Of a stretch of 57,648 nucleotides of DNA, positions 1 to 57,575 are shown piece by piece; within the stretch, counting starts at the first letter, position 1; every line of letters begins with the position of its first letter. The position numbers and the translations under genes are program-made. This stretch comes from Pukyongia sp. (lineage in GTDB: Bacteria > Bacteroidota > Bacteroidia > Flavobacteriales > Flavobacteriaceae), in assembly GCA_030148705.1 (NCBI GenBank), contig JASBSY010000007.1:1-57648 (forward strand), written 5' to 3'. Below the pieces are notes generated by a model, which saw only the letters and a program-made list of their open reading frames with translations, was not told the origin of the DNA and did not search any database.

Positions 1-2960
1 ACAACCACATTGGTAAGGGTCACATTTCCGGTGTTCTTAACTGAGAAACTGTAGGTGATCACATCACCGGGAGCTGCAATACAGTTACCTGCCTGGTCGA
101 AACCGTCATAGGTGCCTGTTTTGATAAGAGCGATGTCGGCATTGCGACAAAGCGGCGTATTGGTAGGATCATCCTCTAAATTACTGTTGTCATCCGATAG
201 ATCGCTCACAGCACCGGCAGTGGTAGAACCGTTGGCCGTAGCCTGGTTCTGTACATTACCCGCATCGATATCGGCCTGGGTGATAACATAGGAGGCTGTA
301 AAGGTTGTAGCATCTGAAGCACCCGGAGCAAGGGAAGCGATAGGACCTCCGGCCATCGTAGCCAGCGGATCGGTTACCGTAATACCCGTGATCGTTACGT
401 TTCCGGTGTTGGTCACCGTAAAGGCATAACTGATGGTCTCTCCTGCATCGGCACAATTGTTCCCGTTACCATCGTTGAAAGTACCCACCTTGATAAGGGC
501 GATGTCGGCATTGCGACAAATCCCCAGATTAACCGTATTACTAGGGTCGTTCACACTACCCAGTGCAGTATCTCCATCAACTTCCGCAGTGTTGGAAATC
601 ACTCCTGCATCAATATCGGCCTGGGTAACTAAATAGCTGGCATTGTAGGTCCACACCTCACCCACATCCAGTACATTCGGTGTACCACCGTCTCCGGATG
701 CAGGACCAGCCACAACTCCACCTAACAATGGATCTGTTACCACTACATTTGTAACATCTACATCACCAAGGTTAGTAACGGTGAATGTATAATTTACGGT
801 ACTTCCCACCACATAAGGATTACAATTCGCTGTATCTCCATCTGTGGATTTGGTTATTTCTATTTCAGCATTCTGACAAAGTTGAACTGTGGCAGAATCT
901 GAATCATTTACATTATAAGAAGAAGAACCGGTAACAGTTCCATCCACTTCAGCAGTATTATCTACCTGCCCGGTCACTATATCAGCCTGAGTAACTGTAT
1001 AGGTAGCAGAGTAAATCCAATTTTCGCCCACCTCAAGGACGTTGTTATTATTAGTATCACCTGAGTCAGGTCCCGGAATTGGGTTAGCACTGATCAAAGG
1101 GTCATTTACCTCCACATTGCTTATCCCAACATTACCCTGATTCGTTACGCTAAAGGTGTAGGTGATCAATTCGCCGGCGGCGATAGGGTTACAATTTTGT
1201 GTGTTATTGGGGCTGGCGGTTTTTTGAATATCGATGGCACAATTGTATAGGGTAAGTGTTACCGGCACTCTTGCGAGGCTGGTACATGAGGTTCCATCAT
1301 CCACTGCTTCAGCATAGTACGTAACTGTACCTATGCTGCTTAATGAAGGATCGGGAACGACAGTTCCATTTACGGCAGCATCGTACCATACGATACTTTG
1401 TCCGTTTGGCACGGTAGCAGTCGCAGTTAATGTTTGAATATTTGGAGTGTCGGCACATTCAGTCTGATCATCACCGGCCATTGGTGCTTCAGGTGGTTCA
1501 CTTACCTGAATGGTAGACATCACTTCAACCGGAGGTAAACTACAATTATTATTGTATACCCCATCATAGGTCAATTCGGCTCTAAAGTCTCCAACAAAGG
1601 GATTGCCACCATTGTAAACAAAGGTTCCCGAAAGGTCTCCCATGGTAGTTCCACTTTCGGTACCAACCAAAATATTGTTCAAATAGAACTCCCAAGTAAA
1701 ATTTATCGTAACAGGAGAACAGGCCCCTGCATTAAAGGTTGCAGAATAGTCAACACTGTTAGTACATTCCATCTGGTCCAGAACCGGATCGGTAATTTGC
1801 GGACAAGGCACACATATTTGCGGATTGTTAAATGGAATGGTTACCATCATACATTCGGCGTCTATGTAATTCATTTCACTCATACCGGATGGCTGAACTC
1901 CGCAACTACTCATTCCTACAGCTTCAATGGTATATTGAAGTGAAAGCATTTGATTGGATACATCACCCACATCCCAGGTTATGGTGTTAGTTCCCATATC
2001 GTAAGACGCATTGATCATATCGCTTAAAGATCCGGGCACCATTTGAAAGCCTGCCCCCAGCACGTCGGTTACAATGGCATCCTTCGCGGCAAGTGCAAGT
2101 TGTCCCAGAATGGAGTTATAAATTGCAGTTAAATCTGCGGCGTTCTCAGTAGTGAATAAACCACCATTCTGAATCGCATCTAATGTATATGTGGCCGGAA
2201 TCTGCCCATCAGTATCATCAATACCACCGAATAGACCAATAGAAAAAATGGTCTGATCGAAAGTATCAGGCCCAATCGTTGTAGTTTGCGCACCAACGCC
2301 TTCGTTAATGGCATCGTTCATACACGCGGTATTGTTCTGAGGAAACGGGGGTGACGGGTTGCTTGAACAGGAAGTTGTACCGTTTAATCGTCTGTTTGTT
2401 ACACCATCTGTTAGCAGTAAAATGCTACGGCCGGTTAGACAATCGAATGTTCCAAAGGTTGTGAGGTGGGTATCGGCTACATCCAATCCCCCGGCAATAT
2501 TGGTTCCGCCATTTGCGACCAGTGAATTAATTGCGGTGATCACAGCCTGTTCCCCTGTGGAATCTGTCAATCCGATATTTAATGTTCCGCTGGTTGAATA
2601 TGAAACTACAGCAACCCTATTTAATCCCGTGGGATTATTAACCGGAGCAAAGAGGTTCTGCACAAAAGAAATAGCAGCATCCTTTGCATAATCGATAGGC
2701 TCGTTAGGATCGTTTGGAATATCGAATCCCATACTTCCCGATCGGTCGATCACAAGAACAACTTCTTGCGGACGGTCGGGTGGATTACCGGTAACGTTTA
2801 AAGTAATATCAAACTGATTACAATTCGTGCTTTCAGTTACCATTTTATCGAGCGTGATATCCTGGGAAAAAAGTGAAGCAGGATTGAACGCAAAACACAC
2901 AAGTACTAGGCATTTTACGAACAGTTTCGACACAGTTTTATTATAAGGTTGCGTTTTCAT
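1..2960 (-). CDS. VWA-domain surface protein with DUF11-type repeats (3' end outside window)
   Basis: The reading frame opens with ATG at 2958-2960 and stays open to base 1, so at least 986 residues are present and the C-terminus is missing. A signal peptide ends near residue 33 (LFSQ). A von Willebrand factor A domain follows, with the MIDAS motif DRSGS at about residues 72-76 and later GGTN and TDG segments that complete the metal site. After a Cys-containing linker come at least four DUF11-like beta repeats, each with a phrase of the type TYTFTVTNxGNVxxTNVxVTDPL; they recur about every 355-365 bases (near 90, 450, 820 and 1185) and run off the edge. Such proteins are secreted adhesins, in this phylum often type IX cargo, but the sorting domain would lie outside the window. 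The substrate is unknown. Confidence 0.88.
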   Translation of the reverse strand, partial: MKTQPYNKTVSKLFVKCLVLVCFAFNPASLFSQDITLDKMVTESTNCNQFDITLNVTGNPPDRPQEVVLVIDRSGSMGFDIPNDPNEPIDYAKDAAISFVQNLFAPVNNPTGLNRVAVVSYSTSGTLNIGLTDSTGEQAVITAINSLVANGGTNIAGGLDVADTHLTTFGTFDCLTGRSILLLTDGVTNRRLNGTTSCSSNPSPPFPQNNTACMNDAINEGVGAQTTTIGPDTFDQTIFSIGLFGGIDDTDGQIPATYTLDAIQNGGLFTTENAADLTAIYNSILGQLALAAKDAIVTDVLGAGFQMVPGSLSDMINASYDMGTNTITWDVGDVSNQMLSLQYTIEAVGMSSCGVQPSGMSEMNYIDAECMMVTIPFNNPQICVPCPQITDPVLDQMECTNSVDYSATFNAGACSPVTINFTWEFYLNNILVGTESGTTMGDLSGTFVYNGGNPFVGDFRAELTYDGVYNNNCSLPPVEVMSTIQVSEPPEAPMAGDDQTECADTPNIQTLTATATVPNGQSIVWYDAAVNGTVVPDPSLSSIGTVTYYAEAVDDGTSCTSLARVPVTLTLYNCAIDIQKTASPNNTQNCNPIAAGELITYTFSVTNQGNVGISNVEVNDPLISANPIPGPDSGDTNNNNVLEVGENWIYSATYTVTQADIVTGQVDNTAEVDGTVTGSSSYNVNDSDSATVQLCQNAEIEITKSTDGDTANCNPYVVGSTVNYTFTVTNLGDVDVTNVVVTDPLLGGVVAGPASGDGGTPNVLDVGEVWTYNASYLVTQADIDAGVISNTAEVDGDTALGSVNDPSNTVNLGICRNADIALIKVGTFNDGNGNNCADAGETISYAFTVTNTGNVTITGITVTDPLATMAGGPIASLAPGASDATTFTASYVITQADIDAGNVQNQATANGSTTAGAVSDLSDDNSNLEDDPTNTPLCRNADIALIKTGTYDGFDQAGNCIAAPGDVITYSFSVKNTGNVTLTNVV

Positions 2961-3021
2961 AAATATAGTTTATGGTTTAAACCTAAATATTTTGATCTCT
3001 GATGGAACGATTAAAAAAAAT

Positions 3022-3048
3022 GACAAAAGCATTCGAAAAATCGAATGC
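3022..3048 (-). terminator. Intrinsic terminator after the 161-aa secreted protein gene
   Basis: A perfect 8-bp stem (GCATTCGA at 3029-3036, TCGAATGC at 3041-3048) with a 4-base loop lies just after the stop codon at 3057. On the minus strand it is followed by TTTTGTC and then eight T residues. There is no T-run on the plus side, so it acts leftward. Confidence 0.8.
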
Positions 3049-3056
3049 CTGCAATT

Positions 3057-3542
3057 TTAGTTATCGGAACCGTCCGAGACGTATAACTTTAAATTCTTAG
3101 AGATTTGCTTCGAGCTGCAGAGATCTGAAACCGCAGAAAATTCAATACAGTACCAGCTGTTGAATTTAATGTTTGGTCCTACGGATACCTCAACTTGTAT
3201 CGGAACTGTCGCTCCGGGAGCTACAGATAGCGAATTGGATCGTAAGTTGTTACCTCTAACAGAAACATTCAGATCGACCTTTGAGGCTGATCGTAAGCCA
3301 GTTGCGGGAGTGCCACATTTCTGGTCCGAAATGCTAGAGTTGAACGTGTAGATTTGCGCTTTTGACGAATTGTTTTGGATTTCAATTTGAAAAATAGTCG
3401 CATCGTTAAGCGTGGCTGAACGAGAATCTCGGTTCTTTACCACTCTCATTTCAGAATTACATACCTGAGCAATTGAAAACTCTGCTCCAAATACTGAAAA
3501 AACTAAAATGAAAATAAAGCTTAATAGCGTAGTTTTTTGCAT
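3057..3542 (-). CDS. Small secreted protein, unknown function
   Basis: 161 residues with a clear N-terminal signal peptide (hydrophobic FIFILVFSVFG, likely cut after SIAQ near residue 25). The mature part looks like one all-beta domain: it has a phrase of the type FQIEIQNNSSKAQIYTF and a VAPGAT turn, as in NEW3/fibronectin-like extracellular folds, and four Cys that could form two disulfides (positions near C28, C75, C132, C142). I do not recognise the family. It is transcribed alone, with its own terminator downstream. Its upstream region carries two copies of the TGTAGGAAAA motif described in the findings. It is not an enzyme by any motif I can see. Confidence 0.7.
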   Translation of the reverse strand: MQKTTLLSFIFILVFSVFGAEFSIAQVCNSEMRVVKNRDSRSATLNDATIFQIEIQNNSSKAQIYTFNSSISDQKCGTPATGLRSASKVDLNVSVRGNNLRSNSLSVAPGATVPIQVEVSVGPNIKFNSWYCIEFSAVSDLCSSKQISKNLKLYVSDGSDN

Positions 3543-3856
3543 AATTTATTCTTTGATTAACTTGATTAGTTGCCCAACTATAATTTAATATTGTTACTCA
3601 AATATATGTAGGAAAATACTTGTAACATTCACCAATACCTAAGTTTTAGTTTAACTGTTAAATAATTCCGTTGAACTACAAAAAAAAGGGTCTAAATTGG
3701 TTAAAATTTGTAGGAAAAGTATATACGTATTTACACGTATTACTACTATTTTACAGCACTTTAGGTCATTTTTAATTGTAAGAATAATTGAAAGGCTTTC
3801 TCTCCTGCATTCTTTAAAACAAGCCGTATCTTTGCCACAAATTTTTAACTTTTAAA
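3543..3856. other. AT-rich divergent intergenic region with two TGTAGGAAAA motifs
   Basis: This 314-base spacer separates the leftward secreted-protein gene from rightward prfC. It holds a 19-base motif at 3607-3625 (TGTAGGAAAATACTTGTAA), a related copy at 3709-3727 that shares TGTAGGAAAA, and the prfC -7 box at 3827-3834. I see no open reading frame or RNA gene. Confidence 0.6.
3827..3834 (+). promoter_or_regulatory. -7 box (TATCTTTG) of prfC
   Basis: TATCTTTG matches the Bacteroidota -7 consensus TAnnTTTG and lies 22 bases before the prfC ATG. No good -33 TTTG is visible at the usual 19-21 base spacing. Confidence 0.6.
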
Positions 3857-57048: not shown

Positions 57049-57076
57049 TTCACGCTTCACGCTTCACCCTTCACTC
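57049..57076. repeat. Heptamer tract (TTCACGC, TTCACGC, TTCACCC, TTCACTC)
   Basis: Four head-to-tail 7-base units at 57049, 57056, 57063 and 57070, varying only in the last two bases. A second tract of the same motif lies near 57480-57575 on the other side of the palindrome region. Confidence 0.75.
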
Positions 57077-57101
57077 TTAAACACATCCACTTCTCGATAC
57101 T

Positions 57102-57179
57102 AATATGAAGTAGCTCTCGCACTTCATATTCATCCGCCAGATTTATCACGTACTACGTGAGGCGGACAGGCTCGAAGTG
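57102..57179. repeat. Group of nested inverted repeats
   Basis: AATATGAAG (57102-57110) pairs with CTTCATATT (57122-57130). Alternatively CACTTC (57120-57125) pairs with GAAGTG (57174-57179), enclosing TCCGCC/GGCGGA (57133-57138, 57161-57166) and the tight palindrome CACGTA C TACGTG (57147-57159). Two alternative folds share the arm at 57122-57125. Confidence 0.7.
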
Positions 57180-57224
57180 ACATTCTATCTCTTCTTTTTT
57201 GTATTGCCTTTCATCTTATCTTAT

Positions 57225-57396
57225 TAACTTTCTTTTACTGGTCTAAAAGAAAGTTACAAAGAAAAGGACCTTTTTCTTTTTCAGAGGCATTTTCATTGCT
57301 GCTATCGCGCAATGAAACCGTATTTATTTTGCTAAATTCTCTACAGGGATTCGCGAATTCTTAACGCAAAATAAATACCTATGCTGGCTGAAAAAG
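57225..57396. repeat. Structured element: hairpin plus a three-way junction
   Basis: A 13-bp perfect hairpin (57225-57237 with 57244-57256) is followed by a 9-bp closing stem (CTTTTTCAG 57276-57284 with CTGAAAAAG 57388-57396). Inside it are two more perfect hairpins: TTTCATTGC/GCAATGAAA (57291-57299, 57309-57317) and a 13-bp GTATTTATTTTGC/GCAAAATAAATAC (57320-57332, 57366-57378), whose loop contains the palindrome ATTCGCGAAT (57349-57358). Confidence 0.75.
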
Positions 57397-57486
57397 GAGT
57401 GTGCGGATTTTAATAAAATTATGTCACTACATTCACGCTTTTACCCCGCAATCTCTTGGTTTAGAACTAGCAGTTCACCTTTAACA

Positions 57487-57575
57487 CTTCACGCTTCACA
57501 CTTCACGGGCTTCCGGCTTTAGGCTTCACCCCTCACTCCTCACCCTTCACTACTCACTACTCACTACTCACTAAA
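57487..57575. repeat. Second heptamer tract, ending in TACTCAC repeats
   Basis: Variants of the TTCACNC heptamer recur across this stretch, and it ends with three exact TACTCAC units at 57551-57557, 57558-57564 and 57565-57571. The tract stops just before the stop codon of the last partial gene. Confidence 0.65.

Follow-up and report, generated by a model that had tools for sequence, protein, structure and literature searches.

A folded, uncatalogued repeat of Pukyongia sp. and other Bacteroidota with a predicted pseudoknot head and a three-way-junction body, resembling a mobile element

The window, that is the whole stretch of 57,648 nucleotides of Pukyongia sp. analysed here, carries near its right end an intergenic palindromic element that had been picked out in a preliminary description made from the sequence alone. 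Four perfect inverted repeats are present, of 13 bp (57225-57237/57244-57256), 9 bp (57276-57284/57388-57396), 9 bp (57291-57299/57309-57317) and 13 bp (57320-57332/57366-57378), at the positions given in that description and nested as it proposed, with one stem closing over two hairpins and a third hairpin outside. Its view that such an arrangement is beyond chance is borne out by folding; as RNA, 57225-57397 reaches -51.9 kcal/mol, whereas 200 dinucleotide shuffles average -29.3 (sd 3.9) and none of them is equally good (z -5.7). For the minus strand with DNA parameters z is -9.5, on a scale that is not comparable with that of the RNA value. The preliminary description had missed three parts. 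A 5-bp stem (57286-57290/57381-57385) separates the closing stem from the junction, the second hairpin has an apical stem (57335-57341/57353-57359), imperfect in the window copy, and the loop of the outer hairpin is predicted to form a pseudoknot (57240-57243 with 57267-57270). The outer hairpin itself was correctly placed, but it is not external to the element, to which it belongs as the putative pseudoknot head. The features of the locus are as follows, the minus strand being suggested and not proven throughout.

57225..57256, minus strand: putative pseudoknot-head hairpin, from sequence, folding and homologous hairpins in other copies; stem of 12 bp (57225-57236/57245-57256), loop 57237-57244 reading ACTGGTCT on the plus strand
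57240..57270, minus strand: predicted pseudoknot pairing of loop GGTC (57240-57243) with GACC (57267-57270), from sequence and covariation in 36 dereplicated copies
57257..57266, minus strand: linking strand, proposed from the mirror pattern as third strand of a triple helix; its purine run AAAGAAAA (57258-57265) is the mirror image of the stem purine strand AAAAGAAA (57245-57252)
57276..57396, minus strand: predicted three-way-junction body, from covariation and a match of 108.9 bits to model R1; closing stem 57276-57284/57388-57396, second stem 57286-57290/57381-57385
57291..57317, minus strand: predicted first inner hairpin (P4) of 9 bp, its letters varying between lineages
57320..57378, minus strand: predicted second inner hairpin, from fold and covariation; 13-bp stem (57320-57332/57366-57378), asymmetric internal loop (57333-57334/57360-57365, TA / CTTAAC on the plus strand) and apex (stem 57335-57341/57353-57359, loop 57342-57352)
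57397..57506, no strand assigned: less conserved 3' extension, common to several, not all, of the own-genome copies
57191..57208, no strand assigned: perhaps what remains of a second pseudoknot head, seen by eye in the alignment

A second head appears by eye to be complete in some other copies of the same genome, e.g., L016 and L018. At gathering score, the Rfam covariance models found only five tRNAs in the whole window, all of them elsewhere. A permissive Rfam scan of 57150-57450 gave 20 matches, every one below its own cut-off, and four related loci had no match in Rfam either. The element is real and not a product of chance, and is without a match in any Rfam family.

The genome of this Pukyongia sp. 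has 13 copies, dispersed over nine contigs in both orientations, and relatives carry the same fold too, in keeping with the many dispersed copies that the preliminary description had predicted. The 12 other copies are 93-99% identical to that of the window, with two being cut by contig ends. Complete copies start near TAACTTTC and finish near CTGAAAAAG or CCGAAAAAG, their flanks differ, and pairwise matches between them extend to about +230 from the start of the body. Several lie near contig ends inside islands of several repeat types, which were probably the cause of the breaks in the assembly. In this genome the flanks of the copies form a mosaic of repeats, and neither clear terminal repeats nor a target duplication was seen. 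Another repeat module, CACTTCTCGATACT followed by a hairpin and CTCGAAGTGACA, occupies 57088-57182 of the window; it is also found in several other islands of the genome and resembles modules in Mesonia and Kordia. Degenerate 7-base repeats of the TTCACNN type flank the element at 57049-57074 and 57481-57564. The gene that precedes the copy at L019 has orthologs in all six congeners, where it is followed, after about 75-100 bases without the element, by a metallo-beta-lactamase-like gene (by eye). In the stretch fetched from the present genome this latter gene was not found, and as the gene on the far side thus differs, the place is not conserved and does not represent a clean empty site.

A DNA search matched eight of 99 genomes, the own genome included. 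One congener yielded a 76% copy, and the matches in other genera were short; the short ones in G038 and G095 were by eye chance-like and were dropped. Full reading of five DNA-matched genomes (G005, G062, G059, G071, and G039) revealed the same architecture with very different stems. A 42-pair structure was written by hand from the folds of 11 sequences, and a covariance model was built from these. In the 11 sequences, 28 of the 42 pairs have changes on both sides, 93.9% of cells are paired, and the covariation is 0.569, compared with 0.19 when shuffled and 0.05-0.12 when slid. The model recovers all 13 copies of the own genome, and with up to 92 candidates scored per genome it matched 11 of 40 genomes including the own one, namely all seven of the genus, two others of the family and two of the order. 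Three of the genus (G003, G004, and G006) matched only at 35-41 bits; among the six congeners, the model matches number one or two in four and six in the other two.

Across the phylum, the model matched at least five of 296 genomes, the own one included, with 12 candidates scored per genome. A pattern scan of named genomes gave at least 108 stretches, of which 80 were fetched, and among the matches listed are Leeuwenhoekiella, Kordia, Tenacibaculum, Mesonia, Dokdonia, Gillisia, Salegentibacter, Saprospiraceae, Lentimicrobiaceae and others, as well as a few MAGs labelled outside Bacteroidota. Applied to the listed matches, the model gave at least 115 matches in 89 sources, with five training loci among them. 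In the resulting alignment of 110 distinct rows (among the matches listed), 38 of the 42 pairs change on both sides, including all nine of P4, with a covariation of 0.527 against 0.139, 1032 two-sided cells and rare one-sided changes. This alignment was fitted to the structure, so the figure from the 11 sequences (28/42) is the cleaner one, and since the scan pattern demanded letters of the second hairpin, conservation there comes partly from the selection of sequences. Relatedness was handled by dereplication only.

The compensatory changes expected in the preliminary description are thus found in both sets, and the three-way junction it proposed is supported by this covariation. Together with the dispersed copies, these changes run counter to the sequence part of the result that it had named as evidence against its reading, a single-copy sequence free of compensation. 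On the evidence of the alignments, the predicted fold is kept across quite different bacteria while its letters have changed. No copy was found in viral contigs with an exact pattern, or in phages queried with one Leeuwenhoekiella copy. Among plasmids, the window copy gave one weak 31-base match inside a gene, which was ignored, and a Mesonia copy gave one 44-base match, in Haliovirga. Clusters of three to four copies on the same strand, about 440-1960 bases apart and without long ORFs, occur at L127, L133, L076, and L079.

The loop of the outer hairpin is complementary to bases just downstream, with GGTC/GACC in the window and TGTCC/GGACA, TGCCC/GGGCA and CGCAC/GTGCG in other copies. Among the matches listed, the at least 115 model matches include 91 with the stem and 80 with an 8-base loop, and 36 dereplicated copies of the latter served as the sample for the pseudoknot. 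A 4-base complement of the loop is present in 29 of these 36 copies (20 distinct loops, among the matches listed), compared with a mean of 7.3 and a maximum of 15 when partners were swapped in 2000 shuffles. In two of the 29 (L081 and L076) the complement lies within the purine run, away from the expected register. With a stricter register, requiring Watson-Crick runs of at least four within the last five loop bases, the pairing is found in 26 of the 36 (among the matches listed), against a shuffled mean of 5.8 and maximum of 13 (n = 1000). The element, as predicted from this covariation, is headed by an H-type pseudoknot in which the outer hairpin contributes to two interleaved helices.

Changes on both sides in great excess of one-sided ones, such as the 1032 two-sided cells (among the matches listed), would also result if template switching during replication (quasi-palindrome correction) kept a palindrome perfect, the fold having no function. 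Such correction should not make a non-nested pseudoknot pairing co-vary, nor produce a mirror-image purine strand, nor keep letters in unpaired loops, and it is considered an unlikely origin of the pattern.

The mirror image concerns the purine run of the linking strand. Among the same 36 copies (among the matches listed), it fits the purine strand of the stem in mirror orientation only in 10 and in direct orientation only in none; the remainder comprises 13 ambiguous copies, three symmetric, nine without G and one that fits neither (L024, which has an insert). A strand that turns back along the stem, with G beside G-C and A beside A-T, is from its geometry what a triple helix would require, and this mirror pattern is the one indication of a possible triple-stranded part in the head. 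If the minus strand is read instead, a pyrimidine loop would run parallel to the stem purine strand, and T(U).A-T(U) and C+.G-C triples would be possible, as in the telomerase RNA and SAM-II pseudoknots. The likeness to these RNAs is one of structure only, namely an H-type pseudoknot in which, on the minus-strand reading, a pyrimidine loop could follow a purine strand; no sequence relation, template or ligand is shown. By eye, small hairpin repeats (e.g., around CTTCGACTNCGCTCAGG) lie within the head in several genera (L073, L075, L099, L104, L089, L088, L101, and L141), and this spot looks like a preferred target for them.

As regards the strand that folds, an A.C mismatch on the plus strand is G.U on the minus strand. 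The ratio of plus-strand A.C to G.U among the matches listed was 108:38 at 97% dereplication (p 6e-9), 65:22 at 90% (p 4e-6), 39:17 at 80% (p 0.005) and 16:9 at 70% (p 0.23, not significant), a count that excludes one conserved pair which is G.U on plus in 94 of 107 rows with letters (among the matches listed) and which itself speaks for the plus strand. C.T also exceeds A.G on plus (68:14 at 90%, among the matches listed), which reads as A.G on minus. With wobble allowed, the pseudoknot is found in 26 of the 36 copies on plus (shuffled mean 10.9, maximum 19) and in 34 on minus (shuffled mean 22.4, maximum 29), again among the matches listed; wobble on the minus strand also raises the shuffled background, so the pseudoknot does not discriminate between strands. 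The mismatch counts suggest, though they do not prove, that the folded strand is the minus strand of the window (57397 to 57225).

Just three of 107 copies (sources of at least 3 kb, among the matches listed) overlap an ORF of at least 120 aa. For 77 copies with neighbours on both sides (among the matches listed), these are convergent in 22 cases, divergent in 10 and in tandem in 45; the element has no fixed orientation to its neighbours, the tandem cases being split 25 to 20 between the two directions. A search for a partner gene covered 514 ORFs of at least 90 aa from 89 sources (among the matches listed) and gave nine clusters of three or more. Ten representatives from eight of these belong to ordinary families, these being ABC transporter, thioredoxin-like, epimerase, UDP-glucose dehydrogenase, eCIS-core, methionine sulfoxide reductase, TonB plug and LuxR-type, while the ninth cluster overlaps the elements themselves. 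The largest, of the ABC-transporter type, occurs in nine of the 89 sources (among the matches listed) at 139-5735 bases. No candidate mobilising enzyme was found, a single integrase gene close to a Kordia fragment apart.

If the element were transcribed as a regulatory or terminator-like RNA for the host genes beside it, a strong fold and an intergenic position, as observed here, would be expected, and this could account for divergent gaps being rarer than convergent ones (10 against 22 of 77, among the matches listed). However, the preference for an orientation beside tandem genes is weak (25 against 20, among the matches listed), the recurring neighbour ORFs are few and ordinary, and the element is absent behind the same gene in six congeners; a host RNA of this kind has a small probability in our estimation. 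The context fits selfish insertion better than it fits a regulator. A pseudoknot together with a triplex is known from the TnpB omega-RNA. It is an RNA of a mobile element (PMC10097598), a point of likeness to the present element; here no TnpB domain is present among the 10 neighbour-ORF representatives (among the matches listed).

The ends of the element are sharp in Kordia algicida, which has 41 match rows above 60 bits and units that are mostly 293 bp, with a range of 271-414 bp. In the best 30 Kordia places, 28 have terminal inverted repeats ACGTSAGTTCGA on both sides (up to three mismatches), and 23 of these 28 units have exact target duplications of 6-8 bp, where 4.1 of at least 6 bp are expected and 12 was the maximum in 2000 shuffles. 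The other five have no or a shorter target copy. Target copies include TAAATA, TAAGTA, TAGTTA and TAATTTA, and are mostly of the form TA(N)2-3TA. The end pattern has 84 hits in Kordia against five in a reversed control; inspection by eye gives distances of 194-418 bp between paired ends and of 1.4-3 kb between some units, with one extra end about 260 bp past a pair. No longer unit with the same ends and with room for a transposase, as would be expected of an autonomous parent, was seen by eye among these hits, which cover the Kordia genome at up to two end mismatches; a parent whose ends have diverged further, or one in another strain, may exist. Two unpaired ends that were inspected have no convincing partner. 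Five short units with the end repeats (L213-L217, Kordia) have a different, long palindromic interior. Two copies in Kordia aestuariivivens are alike at their ends (by eye); in Aureivirga and Tenacibaculum, no clean terminal repeats or target duplication were established.

The element therefore has some of the attributes of a MITE. It is short and non-coding, with a core of about 172 bp in the genome of the window; terminal repeats and target duplications are found in Kordia and not in the window's genome, and an autonomous parent transposon with the same ends was not found. It behaves like a MITE with an unusual, selected interior fold, but in the absence of a parent, and with ends shown in Kordia only, it is not put forward as a full member of the class. 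The Cardinium MITE (PMC9769881) is similarly small, non-coding, multi-copy and without an internal transposase, and the Kordia copies share its terminal inverted repeats and target duplications. The element differs from bacterial MITEs in having a predicted pseudoknot and three-way junction inside, conserved across genera and with a related form in Fusobacteriota, as well as in the lack of a parent insertion sequence (by eye) and in ends that are clear in Kordia only.

One option in the preliminary description was a REP-like palindrome moved by a transposase of the RAYT (Y1 tyrosine) type. RAYT or IS200-type transposition is not known to produce inverted ends with target duplications, and the Kordia copies have both. 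The element does resemble REP/REPIN sequences in being intergenic, palindromic and multi-copy, and Y1 domains are present in four of eight other carrier genomes; nevertheless, none was found in the own genome or in the other four carriers, namely Kordia (41 match rows), Leeuwenhoekiella, Mesonia and Dokdonia. REPs, likewise intergenic palindromes in many copies, are 20-40 bp (PMC3733652), whereas the present unit, at 172 bp in the window and 271-414 bp in Kordia, is several times larger, apparently pseudoknotted and free of Y1 in half of the other carriers. RAYT mobilisation is thus highly improbable. Copying of an RNA by reverse transcription, as for SINEs, in place of movement as DNA would suit the RNA-like pseudoknot and target duplications that vary from 6 to 8 bp, but RVT_1 was undetected in five of nine carrier genomes, the own one included, and the inverted ends in Kordia also argue against it, so that it is very unlikely.

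Another role that was considered is that of a site which a tyrosine recombinase would recognise as a folded single strand. Integron attC sites are used through their bottom strand, which the folded-strand bias suggested here would resemble, and a Kordia right-end fragment (L203 2078-2164) lies 258 bases before a gene for a Phage_integrase/SAM_4 protein (2422-3708). This proximity is a single case, however, and no integrase is present among the 10 neighbour-ORF representatives (among the matches listed). No cassette-like gene lies between the copies in clusters L127, L133, L076, and L079, those between copies at L089 are ordinary genes, and target duplications occur at many sites in Kordia. An attC-like role is accordingly given a low probability.

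Outside Bacteroidota, a megaplasmid of Ilyobacter (Fusobacteriota) has six matches of more than 300 bits to one such element. The three that were read have a similar head, then a closing stem and an internal loop resembling TA/CTTAAC, and they have no first inner hairpin. Head-like hairpins were also matched in plasmids of Haliovirga, Pasteurella (not fetched) and Caballeronia, and by eye the head seems to occur with other bodies, e.g., in the island beside L019 and in Mesonia (L133). In the Caballeronia plasmid (L172 1498-2000), by eye, about 450 bases separate two head-like hairpins that are in inverted order and resemble the ends of one unit. It is conceivable, though we hold it only tentatively and rather doubt it, that these are selfish elements found across phyla, which need a folded strand in order to move, its head a triple-helix pseudoknot and its body a junction. 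Several families would then share the head and differ in their bodies, and the fold, beyond the terminal repeats, would be the handle for the mobilising enzyme.

Nothing describing the element was found in open-licence PubMed Central literature, as represented by titles and the opening parts of abstracts; it is uncatalogued in Rfam and looks like a mobile repeat. Our preferred interpretation, which we rate at somewhat better than even, is a MITE-like, non-coding and non-autonomous mobile element with an interior that has been selected to fold as a single strand. Such an element would spread by DNA insertion with an enzyme supplied in trans, and its folded strand, as RNA or single-stranded DNA, may be recognised by that enzyme or by a partner. 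It is the fold and not the genomic place that is conserved, which makes selection on the spread of the element more likely than selection on a host function.

Many genera of Bacteroidota keep the fold, and a related form of it is found in Fusobacteriota, even as its places and letters are replaced. If the interpretation is correct, a folded strand as substrate or cofactor of a transposition reaction would become directly testable, and an uncatalogued structured family with a likely natural triple helix would be added to those known. The element also accounts for part of the repeat islands at the contig ends of the Pukyongia genome.
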